Below, piece after piece: positions 801 to 62,590 of a DNA stretch of 64,000 nucleotides. A program made the translations under genes and the position numbers. Below the pieces are notes generated by a model, which made no database searches, was not told the DNA's origin, and worked only from the letters and a program-made list of their open reading frames with translations. Positions within the stretch are counted from its first letter, which is position 1. Each line of letters opens with the position of its first letter. The stretch is from Pollenia angustigena (taxonomy: Eukaryota > Arthropoda > Insecta > Diptera > Polleniidae), in contig OV884057.1 in NCBI GenBank assembly GCA_930367215.1, forward strand, positions 205,767,621 through 205,831,620, read 5' to 3'.

Positions 801-944
801 TTCAGTCAAGCATAAAATGAAAAATATTTTGTATTCCCAAAAAAATTACTTTAGTACTGGCAAGTGCACGTCTAAAAAAAACAAAACTGGCAACGTGCTT
901 TATTTTTTGCGAAAACAATAATGCACGTTGTTTTCATTTTGTTT

Positions 945-1110
945 TTTCTTAACCTACTTACAACTACAATTAATGTTGGGAGAATTCCAATCAATTGTAG
1001 TGGCGAATGTAAGAAAAGATAAACTCACTGTTTATTGTTGTTGTTTTTGTTTAAGCTTTGATATTGTTACAAGTTAAACTGTTGCTTATAATTCTTATTC
1101 GCTTAACAGT
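945..1110 (-). repeat. Interior part of an old ribozyme-repeat element
   Basis: The reverse complement matches 6888-7045, the interior between the two identical 191-bp ribozyme units. Shared stretches include AACCTACTTACAACTACAAT, the AAAGATAAACTCACTGTTTATTG region and CTTATTCGCTTAA. Together with the ribozyme unit at 1663-1800 it forms one old element, split at its inner junction by the MITE at 1125-1649. Confidence 0.75.
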
Positions 1111-1124
1111 TTTGTTTGTTTAAT

Positions 1125-1649: not shown

Positions 1650-1662
1650 AATATCTTTAGTT

Positions 1663-1800
1663 TTTCTAAAATCTTTGCACGGAGTTTCCTGACTATCTGG
1701 CCTAAGCAACCAGTGAAATGCTTATAGGAATAGCTTATCCCATCAACAATAAACTTCAGTGTTTTCATCAATAATAAAAATTGGGAATTAAGCACGACAA
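1663..1800 (+). repeat. Hammerhead-repeat family, old copy
   Basis: Homologous in reverse orientation to 6731-6867, from TTTTCTAAAATCTTTG to TTCCCAATTTTTATT and the CGTGCTTAA side. Many substitutions relative to the 6677/7164 pair show greater age. It contains a decayed hammerhead at 1681-1740. Confidence 0.8.
1681..1740 (+). ncRNA. Decayed hammerhead ribozyme
   Basis: The plus strand reads CUGACUA, then CUGG and CCAG as helix II around a CCUAAGCAA loop, then GAAA. The loop keeps the UAAGCAA seen in the other copies. The core G8 position is U, and the AUGC/GCAU helix III is broken (AUGCUUAU). Helix I can still form (GUUUC with GGAAU). I expect it to be inactive. Confidence 0.55.
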
Positions 1801-1973
1801 ACAAAATCCTGCAAATTAAAAATTTTGTTTTCCCAAAAAAATTACTTTGATAAAAAAATATTTTTAATTTATTTTATGTTGTAAATTTTTTTCTTTAATG
1901 AAAATTAAATTTGATAAACTTAAGCCAATTTTAATAACAAAAACTTCAAATTGTTTTTTAGTTACTAAATTAA

Positions 1974-6500: not shown

Positions 6501-6784
6501 TTACCTCCAACAAAACTATTTTAAAAGAGAATTGTAAATATATTATGATTAATATAACCATATTATTGTCACCGGCAACCATATTATGGTTAAATTAGGC
6601 CTCCATCAAGAAGCCACAACCATATTATGGTTGCCGCCGAACATGTTATGGTCAAAAATAACTAAAATGTGTTTATCAAAGTTATTTTCGGGAATACAAA
6701 GTTTATTATTAATACGATCTTCGTATGACGTGCTAAATTCCCAGTTTTTCATATTTGATAAATACACTGAAATTTATTGTTGAG

Positions 6785-6848
6785 GGAAAGCAAGCCTCTA
6801 TGCGCATTTCGCCGGTTGCTTACACCAGCTCATCAGGAAACCTTTTCC
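6785..6848 (-). ncRNA. Hammerhead ribozyme, unit 1
   Basis: On the minus strand: helix I is GGUUUC with GAGGCU, then an internal loop, then GGAAA with UUUCC. The core is CUGAUGA. Helix II is GCUGG/CCGGC with loop UGUAAGCAA. Then comes GAA, and helix III is AUGC/GCAU, self-complementary with no loop. The predicted cleavage site is after AUA, between bases 6799 and 6798. All invariant core positions fit, including the G10.1-C11.1 pair. The loopless helix III suggests activity as a dimer, as in other animal minimal hammerheads. Confidence 0.8.
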
Positions 6849-7271
6849 AAAGATTTTAGAAAAGCCAAAAATATTAAACAAATAAAACCTTAAGCGAATA
6901 AGAGTTATAAACACTCTTAGTCTTACCTGTAACAATATCAAAGCTTAAACAAAACACCAACAATAAACAGTGAGTTTATCTTTTCTTACATCCCCCTACA
7001 ATTGGTTGGGTTCTTTCCGACTCGAATTGTAGTTGTAAGTGGGTTAAAAGAAAAAACAAAATTAAAAAACAAACCGCTTCATTCTATTGTCTTCGTAAGA
7101 AAACAACGAACTAAACCAATTTGCCAATTCAGTTTTATGCACGGGCACATGCAATTATATTACCAAAGTTATTTTCGGGAATACAAAGTTTATTATTAAT
7201 ACGATCTTCGTATGACGTGCTAAATTCCCAGTTTTTCATATTTGATAAATACACTGAAATTTATTGTTGAG

Positions 7272-7335
7272 GGAAAGCAAGCCTCTATGCGCATTTCGCC
7301 GGTTGCTTACACCAGCTCATCAGGAAACCTTTTCC
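7272..7335 (-). ncRNA. Hammerhead ribozyme, unit 2
   Basis: Identical in sequence to the unit 487 bp to the left, with the predicted cleavage between 7286 and 7285. All core residues are kept: CUGAUGA, GAAA and a paired helix II. Confidence 0.8.
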
Positions 7336-7494
7336 AAAGATTTTAGAAAAGCCACTTAGCACTTATAAAATTATGGTTGTTTTTCAACAATAGCATGTTG
7401 TTCTTGGAAAAGAGGAAATTACTAGATATTGTTAATTTAAAAACAAATTATTGTCACAACATGCTTAGAGGCTACCATAATATGGTTTTAGAGA

Positions 7495-9683: not shown

Positions 9684-10050
9684 CCACCTTTAACAAAAGC
9701 ATTTTTAATGAATTGTTTTTTTTTTACATAGGTATTATGGTTACTTCAACATTGTTATTGCCACCGGCAAGCTTATTATGGTGAAATTAGACCTCAAAAA
9801 GGAAACCACAGCCATATTATGCTTACCAATGAGCATGTTTATTTTTATTTTATACAAGAGCAACATTGGTTGGTTAAAACAAAAACAATACTATTGTTAT
9901 TGGAAAACATATTATTGTTATTTACTCATCATAATAAATCGGAGGAAAATATATTATGCTTGTGGCTTCTAGATGAAGCCCAAACTCATAACAATGCATA
10001 TTAAGTTTAACCATAACATTTTGCATTAAAAATAGTTTTGTTGGAGGTGG
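9684..10050. mobile_element. TIR element with ACCATAATATGGT-like palindromes
   Basis: Termini CCACCTTTAACAAAAGCATT and the complement of GCATTAAAAATAGTTTTG plus TTGGAGGTGG pair over about 27 bp with few mismatches. Inside are repeated TATTATGG/CCATATTA words, as in 6501-7495. TSD unclear. Non-coding. Confidence 0.6.
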
Positions 10051-16346: not shown

Positions 16347-16905
16347 TAGTCGGTCAAGCCTGACCATATGATACTCTACACAGCAGTATTTAAAAACTAA
16401 TTTTCGTGAGTGCGTGGCTATATAAAAAAGTAAGTTAGAGGCAGAAATTGCACCCTCTCACCTCGTCGTCCTATTTTTTAAAAACTGCATAGCTTTTGTG
16501 TCCATATAAATATGGATCTATCGATGTTTTAAAGTTCATTAAATTCGGCTAGATAGTTTCTGAGAGAATTGCCCCCTATCTCAACTCGTGGTCCTATTTA
16601 AAATAAAAATGTATAGCTTATGTGCCTGTATAAAATGGATCTATCTATGTTTTAGATTTCATTAAAATTGGTTTGATAGTGGACACAAAGACTCTATTCC
16701 GGAAAGCAGTTTGTTTGGGGACTAATTTGCCCCATTATCAATAGGCTTGGTCCTTGTGCCAATTAAAACCAAATTTCATTAAAATTTCCTCCAAATTGCG
16801 ACCTCTACTTTGCGCACAAGGTTACATGGACAGCCAGTCAGCCGGACGGACATTGTTAAATCTACTCAAAAAGTGATTCTGAGTAGATTGGTACTCTTTA
16901 AGGTA
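16347..16905 (+). repeat. Dispersed repeat family B (130-bp units), copy 1
   Basis: Starts GTCGGTCAAGCCTGACCATA and holds two to three diverged units of about 130 bp built on GGATCTATCTATGTTTTA and GAGAGGCAGAAATTGCCC words. Ends near GTGATTCTGAGTAGA. Other copies: 30480-30835, 42345-42835 (inverted) and 46565-47261 (most complete). Confidence 0.75.
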
Positions 16906-17055: not shown

Positions 17056-18090
17056 ACTAGGAAAATAGGTTATGGGAAGGAGGATAGAGGGAGTAGTGTT
17101 TGTGAACATTCGACTTGAACTTAATCATGTTGTAAGTGAGAGGGAAGACTTCTGCAGGAAGGTTATTCCACATTCGAACTGTCCGGGGAAAAAACGAATT
17201 CTCTCTGTAATGCGTTGTATGATTCAACTGCCAATCGACCACAAAAGGATGGGCTCTTGAAGAAAAACGTGTATTACGAGCAAACGTATGGGTTTCGGGA
17301 ACCAAAGGGAGTCAATAGAATTGGATACCCTACTGGCACCAATGAGAACCTTCGCCCTCTCCCGCACGCGGTCGAGAAGCTTCAAAATAGACTTTGAAGC
17401 ACCGGCCAACACATGAGAGTTGTATTCCATACGCGGTCGGATATATGTAGGTGGTATAAATAGTAAGGAGATCAGATGGAGTGTAATATATCCTACACCG
17501 TCTTAAAAAACCGAGGCACTTGAATGCTTTTTTCGACACCTTGAATATATATTCTGTCCATCGGACATCACATTGTATCCTCATGCCCAGCACATCAGGA
17601 GATTCTGATTCCTCAATAATTATACCACCTATACATACTGATGAAGCACCCTGATCTGTCGCGCGTTTATGCGTCAACACGCAACATTGTGTTTTTCGGG
17701 CATTCAAATCGACCCTATTTGCACGACCCCATTCCGAGACTATGTCAAGGTCTCGGCCGAGCGTATCATTCATATTCTGCCGCATAGCAACGACACCGGA
17801 TACGCTTGGTCTGCACTCAAATGAGTACGAATGGCAATAGATTAGATAGGGTTGGACGTTTGATATAGGAGGTCATTTAGAAAAATAAGAAATAGAGTAG
17901 GAGAAAGAAAGGAGCGTTGCGGCACCCCTGAATGAATATTGAACTCGTTTGACGAAACCCCATCCATAACCACTTGTATAGTGCGATCTCTGAGAAAATA
18001 AATAAATCGAGAGATATAAATCACCGACACCAAATGCAACAAGTTTTGAGAAGAGTGCACTATACCATGGATAACAAAGACTTGAATTCA
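17056..18090 (-). pseudogene. Reverse transcriptase relic of a non-LTR retrotransposon lacking RNase H
   Basis: Minus strand, several frames. SALFSKLVAFGVG lies near 18060; FLRDRTIQVVMDGVSS then FNIHSGVPQ and LSPTLFLIFLNDLL are RT palm blocks at 17860-17995. The catalytic [FY]ADD box expected just after this is missing (YCHSYSFE near 17820-17845). Then follow LGRDLDIVSEWGRAN and KTQCCVLTHKR (17680-17760), KCLGFLRRCRIYY, SKSILKLLDRVRERAKVLIG, and finally NSFFPRTVRMWNNLPAEVFP to a stop at 17057. The C-terminus without RNase H suggests a CR1/jockey-like clade. At least two frameshifts; non-functional. Confidence 0.85.
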
Positions 18091-19887: not shown

Positions 19888-21074
19888 GTCTATACTAAAA
19901 GTTGTTTCCTAGGGTTAAAAGGTTTAATGTAAAATGAAACTTACGGCGTCAAGTGCCAAGTTTTAAAAACTTTAGCTTAAAACCTCTTAAACATTTTGTG
20001 ACCCATTCAATGTCTTAAAATTTTAACAAAATATTAATTAATATTTTAAATTAGACTTTTTAATATTTTTTTACTTTTAAAATATGTACCATATGGGTCA
20101 AACTTTGGTCCCAATAAATCACAGACTTCAGGAGGTCTATCCTTTTTAATATTCGCCGGATTCCAGGTATGACTGTACCTGAGTTGCCACGGAGAATGCA
20201 ACACCAAAAGGTGACATATACTTTAGATGATCCCTGCACACCTGGGAGGTTCTATACACTTCGTAAGCAACATTCCAAGTGGTGCTTGTTTCCCCAAGCA
20301 AAGAAGATAAAAGCAAACATGTATTATTCTCAATTCAAACATGCGATTCGCCAATTTAAAGTTTATAGCCAAAACACTTTACAAATTACAGAAAAACATT
20401 GTTTCATTTATTAAGTGCATAGATATTTTGAAATTACTTCATTTTCCAATGACTCAATAATCATAAGTATTAAAAAAAACTACCGAAATAAAGCCTGTGA
20501 CATCATTTTTCTACACTTAATGTTTAATATAACACAGATAATTAGCGAAATAAAATTAATATTTATCAAATAAACAATTTTAAAAGTATAAATTTGTAGT
20601 TTCAGTTCTCTTTTCGAAATAAACAATCAAGATAATGAACGCTAAAATATGAATTTTAAATGCAATTAAAACGTTTTTGCAACCGATCACAGACGTTTGA
20701 CGTCAAACCGTAAACAGAAAGATAATCGCTTTAAACCTGTTTGAACTTTTGCCGATAATTGAGAAGGTTTTAATTATTAAAAAAAAAATAATAATAAATT
20801 ATAATAAAACTTGGTACCTACAAATAAGCAGCCAACCCTCGGACACATAAGATTATGAGAAATAATAGTTATAACGGGCGTACAAAGAATACAATGACGT
20901 TTGTCATTTTAAAAATTGCAATTAAACGTCATTATCATAATAACAGCAACAATAAAACGTCATTGCAATTGTTAAATTGCCAATATATTGTTGTTAAATT
21001 GTTCAATAATTGTTTGGGTGTAACAAAAAGTTTTAAAGTTCAGCAAATTTAAAAAAGTTTATTAATAAAATTCT
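19888..21074. other. Unassigned intron; slightly GC-richer block at 20100-20415
   Basis: An open frame at 20169-20414 lies in the GC-richer block but has no recognised domain; its start PELPRRMQHQKVTYTLDDPC gave me no family match. The remainder is AT-rich with repeated AACGTCATT words at 20890-20970. Confidence 0.4.
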
Positions 21075-21150
21075 GTTTGTTATGCCAAATTCGCAATTTT
21101 CGTCTCAAATACACTGCAATTTATTGTTGGAGGATTAGCTATCCTTTATG
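21075..21150 (+). repeat. Hammerhead-repeat family fragment
   Basis: GCCAAATTCGCAATTTTCG, then CACTGCAATTTATTGTTGGAGG matches the non-ribozyme half of the 6677 unit. The ribozyme core itself is lost. Confidence 0.5.
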
Positions 21151-25410: not shown

Positions 25411-26110
25411 ATATTTTTAACTTTTTTTTTTTAAATTTAAAATAGTTTGAATTCTTTTATAACTTTTGAAATCATTAGGAAATCAAAAGTAAAATGTTAT
25501 AATGGTTTCACTATTTATTACAAAATAGCAAATTGCATTTTATTTTTTATTAACTAAAACAAAACATTATCACCTACAAATCCATCCATAATTGACGTCA
25601 TTTTACTATAAAAGAAAATCTTAACAACTTTTTTAAAATTAGATTATGTAAATTATTTTATTTGAATATTGGCAAACGTCAGTTATTATCAATGTTTCGT
25701 TATAATGTGCTAAATTCCCATTTCATACTATTGACAAACTGAAGTTTATTGTATATTATAGTTAACAAAATACCTGTCATTTGCTTATACAATTAAGTTA
25801 GTGGTAGTCCAGTTGAAGTACTTTCGAAATTAATATTCCATTTTGAGATAGACTACGAACACAAAATTATAAACCTTCTAAAGGAAAAACGTCTACTGAT
25901 GCACGTAAATCTAGTAAAATTTTAATTGTTTTTTTTTTTTTTGCAAAAATGCAAAAAATTAGATACAAAAAATATATGATAAACAAATGAAAAGGAGTTG
26001 ACAGTGTTGCCACTTCTTTATATAGAATTAAAAGATGACAAATCTAATTTGGAATTTTAAAAAGTCATTGAAAAATGTTAAACGAATTTTTGAAAATTGC
26101 CATATTTGAG
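25411..26110. other. Unassigned AT-rich intron with a ribozyme-repeat fragment
   Basis: At 25700-25755 TGTGCTAAATTCCCATTT, then ACTGAAGTTTATTG matches one end of the hammerhead-repeat family without the ribozyme. Otherwise nothing recognised; poly-T at 25928-25941. Confidence 0.45.
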
Positions 26111-39192: not shown

Positions 39193-40111
39193 GGGTGATT
39201 TTTTAGCTATTATCTTTTTGGCAACACTGGTTTAAACAGCTGACGCACGTTTCGTGTTTTGTTTCACTGTCAAACATCTTCAGTTTGGTCTATAATTTAA
39301 CCATGAATCGTCTAACAAACGAACAATGCTTGCAAATTATTGAATTTTATTATCAAAATGCGTGCTCTGTTAAGAAAGTCCATCGCGCACTTCTTGTGTT
39401 CAGCGACGAAGCTCATTTTTGGCTCAATGGGTACGTTAATAAGCAGAATTGTCGATTTTGGAGTGAAGATCAGCCAGAAGCATTGCAAGAGCTACCAATG
39501 CATCTAGAAAAAGTCACAGTTTGGTGCGGTTTATGGGCTGGTGACATCATTGGACCATACTTCTTCAAAGATGATGCGAATCGTAACGTAACTGTGAATG
39601 GTGAGCGCTACCGTGAGATGATATCCAACTTTTTTTTACCCAAAATGCAAGAGCTTGACTTGCATGACATGTGGTTTCAACAAGACGGTGCCACATGCCA
39701 AACAGCACGCTTAACAATGGACTTATTGAGAGGCGAGTTCGGTGAACATTTTTTTTTTTTTACGTTTGGGACCGGTCAATTGGCCGCCTAGATCGTGCGA
39801 TTTAACGCCTTTAGACTATTTTTTGTGGGGCTATGTTAAAGACACACACATACCTGCTTCAATTGACTCATTGGAAGACAACATTGAAGCATTTATTCAT
39901 GAGATACCGGCCGAAATGTCGGAAAGAGTATGCCAAAATTGAACTAAGCGGATGGACCATTTGAGGCGCCGTCACGATCAACATTTGCATGAAATAATCT
40001 TCAAACATTAAATTATATGGACCGTACTATCGATTCAAATAAAGATTTCATGAACTTTTCTGAATTTTATGGGTTTTTTTTAACTTTCCTGTAGCTCTTA
40101 AAAAATCACCC
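39193..40111 (+). mobile_element. Internally deleted mariner-type element, copy 2
   Basis: Ends GGGTGATTTTTTAGCT and (inverted) GGGTGATTTTTTAAGAGCT enclose 919 bp. The flanks are AT-rich with TA steps, but the exact TA duplication is blurred. It encloses the transposase relic. Confidence 0.8.
39303..40011 (+). pseudogene. Tc1/mariner-superfamily transposase relic (DD41D-like), copy 2
   Basis: Starts MNRLTNEQCLQIIEFYYQNA, the first helix of the DNA-binding domain. After about 30 residues it jumps to VFSDEAHFWLNGYVNKQ, the block with the first catalytic Asp, so roughly 100 or more residues are deleted in frame. It continues with KVTVWCGLWAGDIIGPYFF and VNGERYREMI. DMWFQQDGATCQTA has the second Asp. 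A T-run at 39750-39762 causes a frameshift before NWPPRSCDLTPLDYFLWG, the third Asp. A TGA follows VCQN (about 39940). The sequence ends RMDHLRRRHDQHLHEIIFKH. Counting across the shift gives 41 residues between Asp 2 and Asp 3, as in DD41D (rosa-type) elements. Dead. Confidence 0.9.
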
Positions 40112-46564: not shown

Positions 46565-47261
46565 CAAGTAAGAAAGTATAGTCGGTCAAGCCCGACCATA
46601 TGATACCCTACACCACAGTATTTAAAAACACATCATGCTTATGTGTCCATATAAATATAGATTTATCTAAGTTTATAAACTTCTAAAAATCGGTTTGAAA
46701 GTTTGTGAGAGGCAGAAATTGCCCTCTACCTCCCGTTGTGCTCCTATTTTTGAAAAACTGTATAGCTAATGTGTCCCTATAGATATGGATCTATCTATGT
46801 TTTAAATTTCATTAAAATCGGTTTCAGAGGCAGAAATTGCCCCTATCTTCCCTCGTGGTCCTATTTTTTTAAAAATGCATACATTTTGTGTCCATATAGA
46901 TATGGTTCTATCTATGTGTTAAATTTCATTGAAATTGGTTTGATAGTTTCTGAGAGGAAGAAATTTTCCCCTATCTTCCCTCGTGGTCCTACGATTCGAT
47001 TTTGAATAGGCTTGGTCCTTGTGCCAATAAAAACCTATGACCCAAATTTCATCAAACTATCTCCAAAATTGCGACCTGTACTTTGCGCACAAGGTAACAT
47101 GGACAGCCAGCCAGCCGGACGGACATCGTTAGTTCGACTCAGAAAGTGATTCTAAGACGATCGGTATACTTTAAGGTGGGTCTAGGACCAATATTTTAAG
47201 GCGTTACACACATCAGCACAAATGCATAATACCCTCTCCACTATTGTGGTGTGGGTATAAA
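46565..47261 (+). repeat. Dispersed repeat family B, most complete copy
   Basis: Head GTCGGTCAAGCCCGACCATA then TGATACCCTACACC. Three units of about 120-130 bp start near 46640, 46771 and 46890. A unique tail carries GCCAGCCGGACGGACATCG and GTTCGACTCAGAAAGTG and ends CTATTGTGGTGTGGGTATAA. Non-coding. The class is not identified. Confidence 0.8.
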
Positions 47262-57972: not shown

Positions 57973-58024
57973 CATTGCTTGTTCGATTTTATTATCGATT
58001 GCAACTGCACTTGTTCCAGATGCA
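57973..58024 (-). CDS. bun: bunched (TSC22-domain protein) internal exon
   Basis: This is a 52-nt exon. Read on the minus strand, a pyrimidine-rich tract ending TTATTTGTAG precedes it and GTGAGT follows it. After one leading base that completes a codon from the upstream exon, it reads ASGTSAVAIDNKIEQAM and ends in phase 0. This matches the start of the TSC22 domain of bun/TSC22D proteins, where the next exon should begin DLVKxHLM and supply the leucine zipper. The same short exon with this boundary is known in vertebrate TSC22-family genes. Bun proteins are dimerising TSC-box/leucine-zipper factors acting in growth and patterning. No other exon of the gene was found in the window. I see no frameshift or stop. 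The alternative, a retrocopy, is unlikely because both splice sites are intact. Confidence 0.92.
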
Positions 58025-61849: not shown

Positions 61850-62100
61850 AATTTTTATGTCGTGCTTAGTCCGGGTTCACACTATGTAAGCTTTCTTTCA
61901 GAAAGTCTGAGTTTATAGATGATAGGGGAAGAAATCATGCTTTTTTCTCTGCTCTCTCACCCATAAACTCAGACTTTCTGAAAGAAAACTTTCATAGTGT
62001 GATCCCAGACTTAATTCCCAATTTTTATTCTTGATAAAAACACTGAAATTTATTGTTGATGGGATAAGCTTTTCCTATGCGCATTTCACTGGTTGCTTTT
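61850..62100 (-). repeat. Hammerhead-repeat family copy with MITE insertion
   Basis: GTCGTGCTTA before and TTAATTCCCAATTTTTATTC after the MITE at 61869-62011 join into the family sequence seen at 1760-1797. The ribozyme half keeps GCAACCAGUGAAAUGCGCAU on the minus strand. The CUGANGA side is truncated by a T-run at 62097-62118. Confidence 0.75.
61869..62011. mobile_element. PIF/Harbinger-like MITE (TTA duplication)
   Basis: 143 bp; ends GTCCGGGTTCACACTATG and (inverted) GTCTGGGATCACACTATG, continuing through TTTCTTTCAGAAAGTCTGAG. TTA at 61866-61868 and 62012-62014. The ribozyme repeat at 1760-1797 gives the empty site with one TTA. The termini resemble those of the 2149 and 33723 elements. 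Confidence 0.88.
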
Positions 62101-62449: not shown

Positions 62450-62590
62450 TTATCATTATTAATAAGATTTCCGTATGTCGTGCTAAATACGCTGACATTT
62501 ATTGTTGAGGGAAAGCTAGCTTCTATGCGCATTTATCTGGTTGCTTAGGCCAAATCGTCAGGAAACCTTTTCCAAAGATTTTAGAAAAAA
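62450..62590 (-). repeat. Hammerhead-repeat family copy
   Basis: Aligns with 6700-6860 except for a short deletion near 62488 (TGCTAAATACGCTG). Carries the ribozyme at 62510-62573. Confidence 0.8.
62510..62573 (-). ncRNA. Hammerhead ribozyme with core mutation
   Basis: Minus strand: GGUUUC pairs with GAAGCU (helix I), then CUGACGA. Helix II is UUUGG/CCAGA with loop CCUAAGCAA. Then UAAA replaces GAAA, and AUGCGCAU is intact. Helix I and II differ in sequence from the 6785 copy but keep pairing. Loss of G12 should stop cleavage. Confidence 0.65.

Follow-up and report, generated by a model that had tools for sequence, protein, structure and literature searches.

Two identical stretches of 191 nt, each carrying a hammerhead ribozyme motif, stand close together in a window of fly DNA (by window we mean the whole stretch that was analysed, 64,000 nt of Pollenia angustigena), and the question raised by this locus is what kind of element they belong to and by which route such an element re-enters DNA. 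The first-pass annotation had described two identical 191-nt copies around a 296-nt interior with a period of 487 nt, and comparison of the window with itself bears this out: positions 6677-6867 and 7164-7354 are identical at a spacing of 487 nt, with the interior at 6868-7163 (296 nt). The repeat program reported 195 nt at 99%, and the single mismatch is located before 6677. The two halves of the insertion show 0 differences over 191 positions, as for a recent insertion. When the unit is numbered in the ribozyme sense, with u1 as the first base 3' of the predicted cleavage site, the insertion runs from u419 at its 5' border to u122 at its 3' border (Table 1). No long open reading frame was found in the 487-nt unit. 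Self-pairing of the 487-nt circle gave a fold z of -4.28 relative to shuffles; since 11 out of 80 control windows are equally low, the stability of the circle was dropped as evidence.

A complete hammerhead core had been read on the minus strand of each unit, and this reading holds. The 38-nt core (CTGATGA...GAAATGCGCATA) occurs exactly on the minus strand at the two places listed in Table 1 and, with up to three mismatches allowed, nowhere else in the window, where shuffles expect 0. A custom hammerhead descriptor agrees, with just these two matches in 64 kb; the same descriptor gave seven matches on 150 Mb of first-order random sequence. Each repeat reads CUGAUGA, helix II GCUGG/CCGGC, GAA and then AUGCGCAU A, and the predicted cleavage triplet is AUA. 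Folded for minimum energy, the 69-nt core forms helix II with 6 bp and helix I as 7 bp and 5 bp separated by a 2-nt bulge. The annotated core rules stand for CUGAUGA and helices I and II and fail for helix III, because the proposed pairing AUGC/GCAU leaves no loop: within one RNA this helix has 2 bp only, with the loop GCGC, and the 8-nt helix III palindrome can pair fully only between two ribozymes. With its CUGANGA / GAAA / UH core and three helices, open at helix I, the motif is a type I hammerhead. A type III topology was considered and rejected by hand: no helix III partner or NUH triplet is properly placed before the core, and helix I closes as in type I. Loop II (AAGCAA) is complementary over 6 nt to the 3' strand of helix I (UUGCUU); a contact between them, which would partly compete with outer helix I, is a prediction only, and it shows no covariation because the AAGC/GCUU part is unchanged in most rows of the alignment.

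The expectation that a hammerhead model would match failed with Rfam. Rfam 15 gave 0 matches at gathering score in the whole window, and a query of 1301 bp matched none of the hammerhead families even at E=10. An 86-nt query matched only Hammerhead_3 (10.8 bits versus a cut-off of 48.5). A further 18 loci, which total 59,735 bases and include both other copies and Penelope-like loci, also gave 0 matches. The energy fold of an 89-nt stretch is not a hammerhead, and its stability is no better than that of shuffles (z 0.37). The missing match may reflect the reach of the models or a real doubt. Judged at the level of sequence, we consider it outweighed by the exact core together with the conservation of stem pairs across the copies described below.

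Table 1. Positions of the retrozyme insertion, its older relatives and an exon of the probable host gene in the window
Feature	Position	Strand	Remark
Retrozyme insertion	6677..7354	-	678 nt, or 1.39 times the 487-nt unit; read in ribozyme sense, the truncated 5' end is 7354 and the 3' end 6677
Complete unit of 487 nt, from one predicted cleavage site to the other	6799..7285	-	u1 = 7285, u487 = 6799
3' end region of the insertion	6677..6706	-	u93 = 6706, u122 = 6677
Hammerhead core, first copy	7286..7323	-	predicted cleavage between 7286 and 7285
Hammerhead core, second copy	6799..6836	-	predicted cleavage between 6799 and 6798
Older copy A, first piece	828..1124	+	unit 99-413, ~77% identity
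Older copy A, second piece	1650..1859	+	from unit 411 into the next unit as far as 132; core disrupted at G8
Older copy B	62455..62588	-	best 108 nt at 88% identity; core disrupted at G12
Older copy B2	62010..62098	-	3' half of the hammerhead only
Old family fragment C	21054..21150	-	BLAST with the element
Old family fragment D	25674..25752	-	BLAST with the element
52-nt exon, TSC22/bun-type gene	57973..58024	-	peptide ...GTSAVAIDNKIEQAM; AG / GTGAGT edges; a CIWNK-like reading was not used

The locus had also been placed in an intron of bun, in the sense of transcription. The sense orientation stands, the insertion lying downstream of the 52-nt exon in Table 1; the gene call comes from this one exon, whose peptide we take to be a TSC22/bun exon motif. 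A search of the window for the motif of the next bun exon found nothing, which makes a bun intron the probable site of the insertion. BLAST of the element against the window revealed five older relatives (A to D in Table 1), which the first-pass annotation had not recorded. Copies A and B have broken cores, yet their stems still pair: in a four-row alignment 97.4% of the cells pair, versus 36.8-44.7% with slid partners. In the shuffle control of this alignment 351 out of 500 shuffles were as good, and only the slide control separates. Copy A is split by a 525-bp nested insertion at 1125-1649, whose ends are perfect inverted repeats of 12 bp (CACCCCTATCGC) and which is bordered by AAT on either side.

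The window's own assembly (1,370,458,813 bases or 1.37 Gb, 31 contigs) was searched for further copies. The 195-nt end query gave at least 249 candidates, of which the best 40 were scored, and a u1-u123 query gave at least 186, with 41 among the matches listed. An interior query gave at least 1568 candidates (41 matches listed, 40 of them with 201, one with 199, aligned bases at a rounded 100%), and a second interior query at least 1189 (40 matches listed, at 99-100%). All candidate counts are lower bounds, with common words skipped. We read 40 loci from the end query (the window itself is L003), seven new ones from the u1-u123 query (L043-L049) and 20 from the interior query (L050-L069); these copies are the top-scoring 40 of each search and not a random sample. 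The search for the unit in its host genome, which the first-pass annotation had proposed, thus turned up a family of which 72 tracts were read in 67 loci on several chromosomes, and the suspicion that the pair is an assembly duplication does not hold. If the six tracts per 64 kb of the window are typical, the copy number would very roughly be about 100,000 genome-wide. With the interior queries, matches occur in tandem runs at 487-nt spacing, up to five successive; at G000:C1:103245939-103248009 matches spaced in this way suggest an array of at least five units. No match to the element was found in phages, prokaryote contigs or viral contigs. A 20-nt word in two viral contigs has no further likeness around it and was taken as chance.

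When 49 hammerheads were compared (47 from L003-L042 plus copies A and B), the core was intact by pattern in 34 and not in 15. Across 39 distinct rows the 12 stem pairs are kept in 94.8% of the cells, compared with 31.9-47.4% when the partners are slid, and pair-keeping changes separate two sets of copies. In these rows the first pair of helix II is GC in 16, GU in 17 and UA in one (UU in five), the third pair of helix II is UG in 17 and UA in 20, and the third pair of helix I is UG in 15 and UA in 21.

The 3' ends of the copies fall at two points 29 nt apart in 65 out of 72 tracts: 53 end at u122 (...AAAATAACTTTG) and 12 at u93 (...CGTATTAATAA), two of the latter being doubtful (L029 and L066, where similarity continues to u114 and u100). 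Seven tracts end elsewhere, four of them at nested insertions at u367-370 and the others at u68 (L050), u46 (L051) and u88 (an inverted piece, L061). Because the end query itself ended at u126, it favours copies that reach u122; the interior query stops short of the 3' end, and its 22 tracts in 20 loci showed ten ends at u93, eight at u122 and four elsewhere. The inserts that interrupt L010, L020, L042 and L054 near unit 367-370 differ in length, and two of them have inverted ends by eye.

While the 3' ends are fixed, the 5' ends are scattered round the unit, with 53 distinct positions for the 65 anchored tracts. These tracts are 122 to 1803 nt long (0.25 to 3.7 units), 27 of them longer than 487 nt and seven longer than 974 nt. 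The matches of L045-L048 break off at u1 because the query was linear, although some ribozyme sequence continues upstream. In two copies, a small number, the first base is u1 itself, next to the predicted cut (L043 and L044), which is where run-off on cleaved RNA would place it. Nine of the 65 begin at u291-297 versus 0.93 expected, and the best such window reaches nine in a fraction of 0.0004 of uniform draws, a window that was picked after seeing the data and that includes two rearranged tracts (L061 and L068). Structural stops of the enzyme would be a fair guess here, because a predicted stem has its 3' side at u283-305.

No two of the 65 anchored tracts share their 3' flank. Words of at least 7 nt common to both borders were found in the flanks of 15 out of 53 u122 tracts (1.29 expected from swapped flanks) and of four out of 12 u93 tracts (0.36 expected). 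Target-site duplications are over-represented and have no single fixed length, many copies showing repeated words between 5 and 9 nt long; the insertion at 6677-7354 has no convincing duplication, ATAA only. The first five bases of the 3' flank were counted in 38 tracts from the first set and are G in 37, T in 23, A in 29, A in 29 and A in 22; microhomology and target preference are indistinguishable because the unit itself reads G-T-A-A after u122. No poly(A) or simple-repeat tail is common to the copies. With a fixed 3' end and variable starts, the 191-nt repeats are the overlap of a read-through of 1.39 units and not LTR-like termini. We concluded that the insertion is a 1.39-unit, 5'-truncated animal-type (non-LTR) retrozyme and not an LTR element. 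The annotated retrozyme is thus retained on its hammerhead core, its 487-nt unit and its many genome copies, while the layout of two terminal units around an interior has to be given up.

An LTR retrozyme of the plant kind, in which 191-nt LTRs with hammerheads enclose an interior and are moved by an LTR-retrotransposon, would also place two identical stretches at the borders. It is very improbable, as the anchored tracts lack a constant 5' terminus and LTR termini fixed at both ends, copies of a quarter unit to several units occur, the duplications vary in length, no tRNA primer site or purine tract was seen by eye at the borders, and no tRNA gene was found. Tandem runs exist, and variants present in only part of the units of a tract are compatible with unequal exchange within an array, and one might suppose that a satellite or tandem repeat had spread at the DNA level by such exchange or by excised DNA circles; two fixed 3' points and duplicated flank words are unexpected from DNA circles, and we regard this origin as improbable, although unequal exchange may have lengthened arrays afterwards. 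The exact identity of the two stretches and the lack of an Rfam match could point to an assembly duplication or to a chance likeness to a hammerhead. Dispersal over 67 loci on several chromosomes, with a different 3' flank at every anchored tract, and the conservation of stem pairs across copies, leave that explanation next to no probability. Finally, a ribozyme in sense orientation in a probable intron might have been domesticated to regulate bun by cutting the intron, but this one is a member of a very large, young family and its two halves are still identical, and such a role is hardly credible.

Several known systems resemble the fly element; PMC7229834, PMC4918200, PMC3088659, PMC2837043 and PMC7936874 are cited here from excerpts of these papers. 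Metazoan non-LTR retrozymes, with insects among the named hosts, are alike in having a type I hammerhead in a non-coding unit of a few hundred nt with low G+C, partial to multi-unit tandems without LTR features, and co-occurring Penelope-like elements with minimal hammerheads (Cervera and de la Pena 2020, PMC7229834). The fly family likewise consists of many copies of a short tandem unit that is non-coding and carries one type I hammerhead; it has no LTR, and its duplications, when present, exceed 4 bp. Its 487-nt unit is larger than the 170-400 nt given for these retrozymes, a difference that does not exclude membership because the discussion of the same paper allows circles from 150 to over 1000 nt (PMC7229834). 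The excerpt of PMC7229834 does not mention 3' ends fixed at a pair of points together with scattered 5' ends, and it leaves the mobilising enzyme of animal retrozymes as a hypothesis. Plant LTR retrozymes also carry hammerheads within direct repeats and have a circular RNA (in plants), and differ in their type III ribozymes, LTRs of 300-400 bp, 4-bp duplications, and primer site with purine tract (PMC4918200). Repeat-associated hammerheads of Aedes aegypti share the dipteran host, the interspersed repeat and a palindromic loop III; the Aedes example tested in that study was inactive as a monomer and is likened to the fly ribozyme by description only, and pairing between two ribozymes has been proposed for Aedes and newt (PMC3088659). 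The pDo500 satellite of Dolichopoda crickets has a similar unit of ~500 bp with one hammerhead per unit and, unlike the fly element, is a satellite making up ~5% of the genome (PMC2837043). Type III hammerheads of dipterans are alike in occurring in fly genomes and differ in topology (PMC7936874). The family is an animal-type retrozyme of a known kind; it stands out by 3' ends cleanly anchored at two points, combined with truncated 5' ends and read-through. Among the papers listed on hammerhead retrotransposons of insects and on retrozymes, no report of this fly family or of such footprints was found. The fly host adds a chromosome-scale genome in which copy-by-copy tests are possible.

Which enzyme could have moved a non-coding unit? 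Penelope-like open reading frames with RVT_1 and/or GIY-YIG are present in the same genome, with GIY-YIG matches over cut-off in at least 19 places (150 scored of 493 candidates). One locus (L079) has reverse transcriptase and GIY-YIG both over cut-off, GIY-YIG barely; another (L071) has GIY-YIG and a reverse transcriptase below cut-off, and a GIY-YIG match was found in the frame of L078. By this pair of domains L071 and L079 are Penelope-like elements. Hammerhead-like motifs were seen in ten of the 12 Penelope-like loci read, and in the largest set of loci the common sequence stops, by eye, ~60 nt after the motif. The hammerhead-like motifs on the 3' side of the GIY-YIG frame (L071-L081) differ at a helix II pair, where both sides have changed: some loci read GUCAA/UUGAC, whereas L079 and L080 read GUGAA/UUCAC. 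The 3' region of the retrozyme has no sequence similarity to four Penelope-like loci, and the unit, which carries no frame with reverse transcriptase and GIY-YIG, is not itself a Penelope-like element. It has been reported that a Penelope-like enzyme starts inside its template at two sites, with a genomic 'tail' of 30-40 bp between them (PMC11167929). Since such elements are present in this genome and two start sites with a tail have been published, their enzyme is the best candidate, and the match in architecture is close. The Penelope-like PAc shares with the fly family a hammerhead upstream of the internal start of reverse transcription, two start sites, partial tandem copies and AT-rich targets; elements of this type encode their enzyme, whereas the fly element is non-coding (PMC11167929). 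A LINE-type (target-primed, non-Penelope) enzyme seems to us rather unlikely. A fixed 3' end, 5' truncation and duplications are LINE features too, and an open frame in the window (17333-17872) looks by eye like the end of a LINE reverse transcriptase, with no Pfam match. However, the copies lack a common poly(A) or simple-repeat tail, and two ends 29 nt apart with priming inside the unit fit a Penelope-like enzyme better (PMC11167929).

Taken as a whole, the locus is very probably a young, internally started and 3'-anchored insertion of an animal-type (non-LTR) retrozyme that is non-coding and present in high copy number. The retrozyme RNA would be the minus strand, with a unit of 487 nt and one type I hammerhead per unit. 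The ribozyme would cut transcripts after u487, and the cut ends would be joined to a circle, or uncut multimers would persist. An enzyme acting in trans, for which that of the Penelope-like elements is the best candidate, would start reverse transcription on target DNA at u122 or u93 and proceed towards the 5' side over distances that vary and reach 3.7 units. The outcome would be the footprint seen in the genome, a 5'-truncated, 3'-anchored insertion with short target-site duplications. The two fixed 3' points, taken with the truncated 5' ends and the read-through, speak for a Penelope-like start inside the unit, and the footprints offer a testable answer to how animal retrozymes re-enter DNA, namely by internal initiation on a circular or multimeric template.

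The nature of that template was approached through 18 young multi-unit tracts, in which five variants are found in all units of a tract (three of them in L067) and 65 in only some. Most of the partial variants are private and resemble later mutations, and several are common to two of three or four units. Such partly common variants agree no less with multimeric templates or with unequal exchange than with a circle. It is quite possible, and we suggest it tentatively, that animal retrozymes are copied from a closed RNA circle, on which a Penelope-like enzyme would start at u122 or u93 without a 3' end and run round until it falls off. If this is true, tract length would record the distance run, and the genome would be a record of priming points, processivity and structural stops.

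Other features of the window were noted in passing. Palindromes of the sequence AACCATATTATGGTT flank the insertion at 6556-6652, 7470-7487 and 9810-9827, with seven matches at up to three mismatches versus 0.07 expected. Two tandem repeats of ~120 bp with similar units are located at 16456-16680 and 46637-46991. An open frame at 39207-39788 gives a weak match to the helix-turn-helix domain DUF4817 and resembles, by eye, a transposase fragment.
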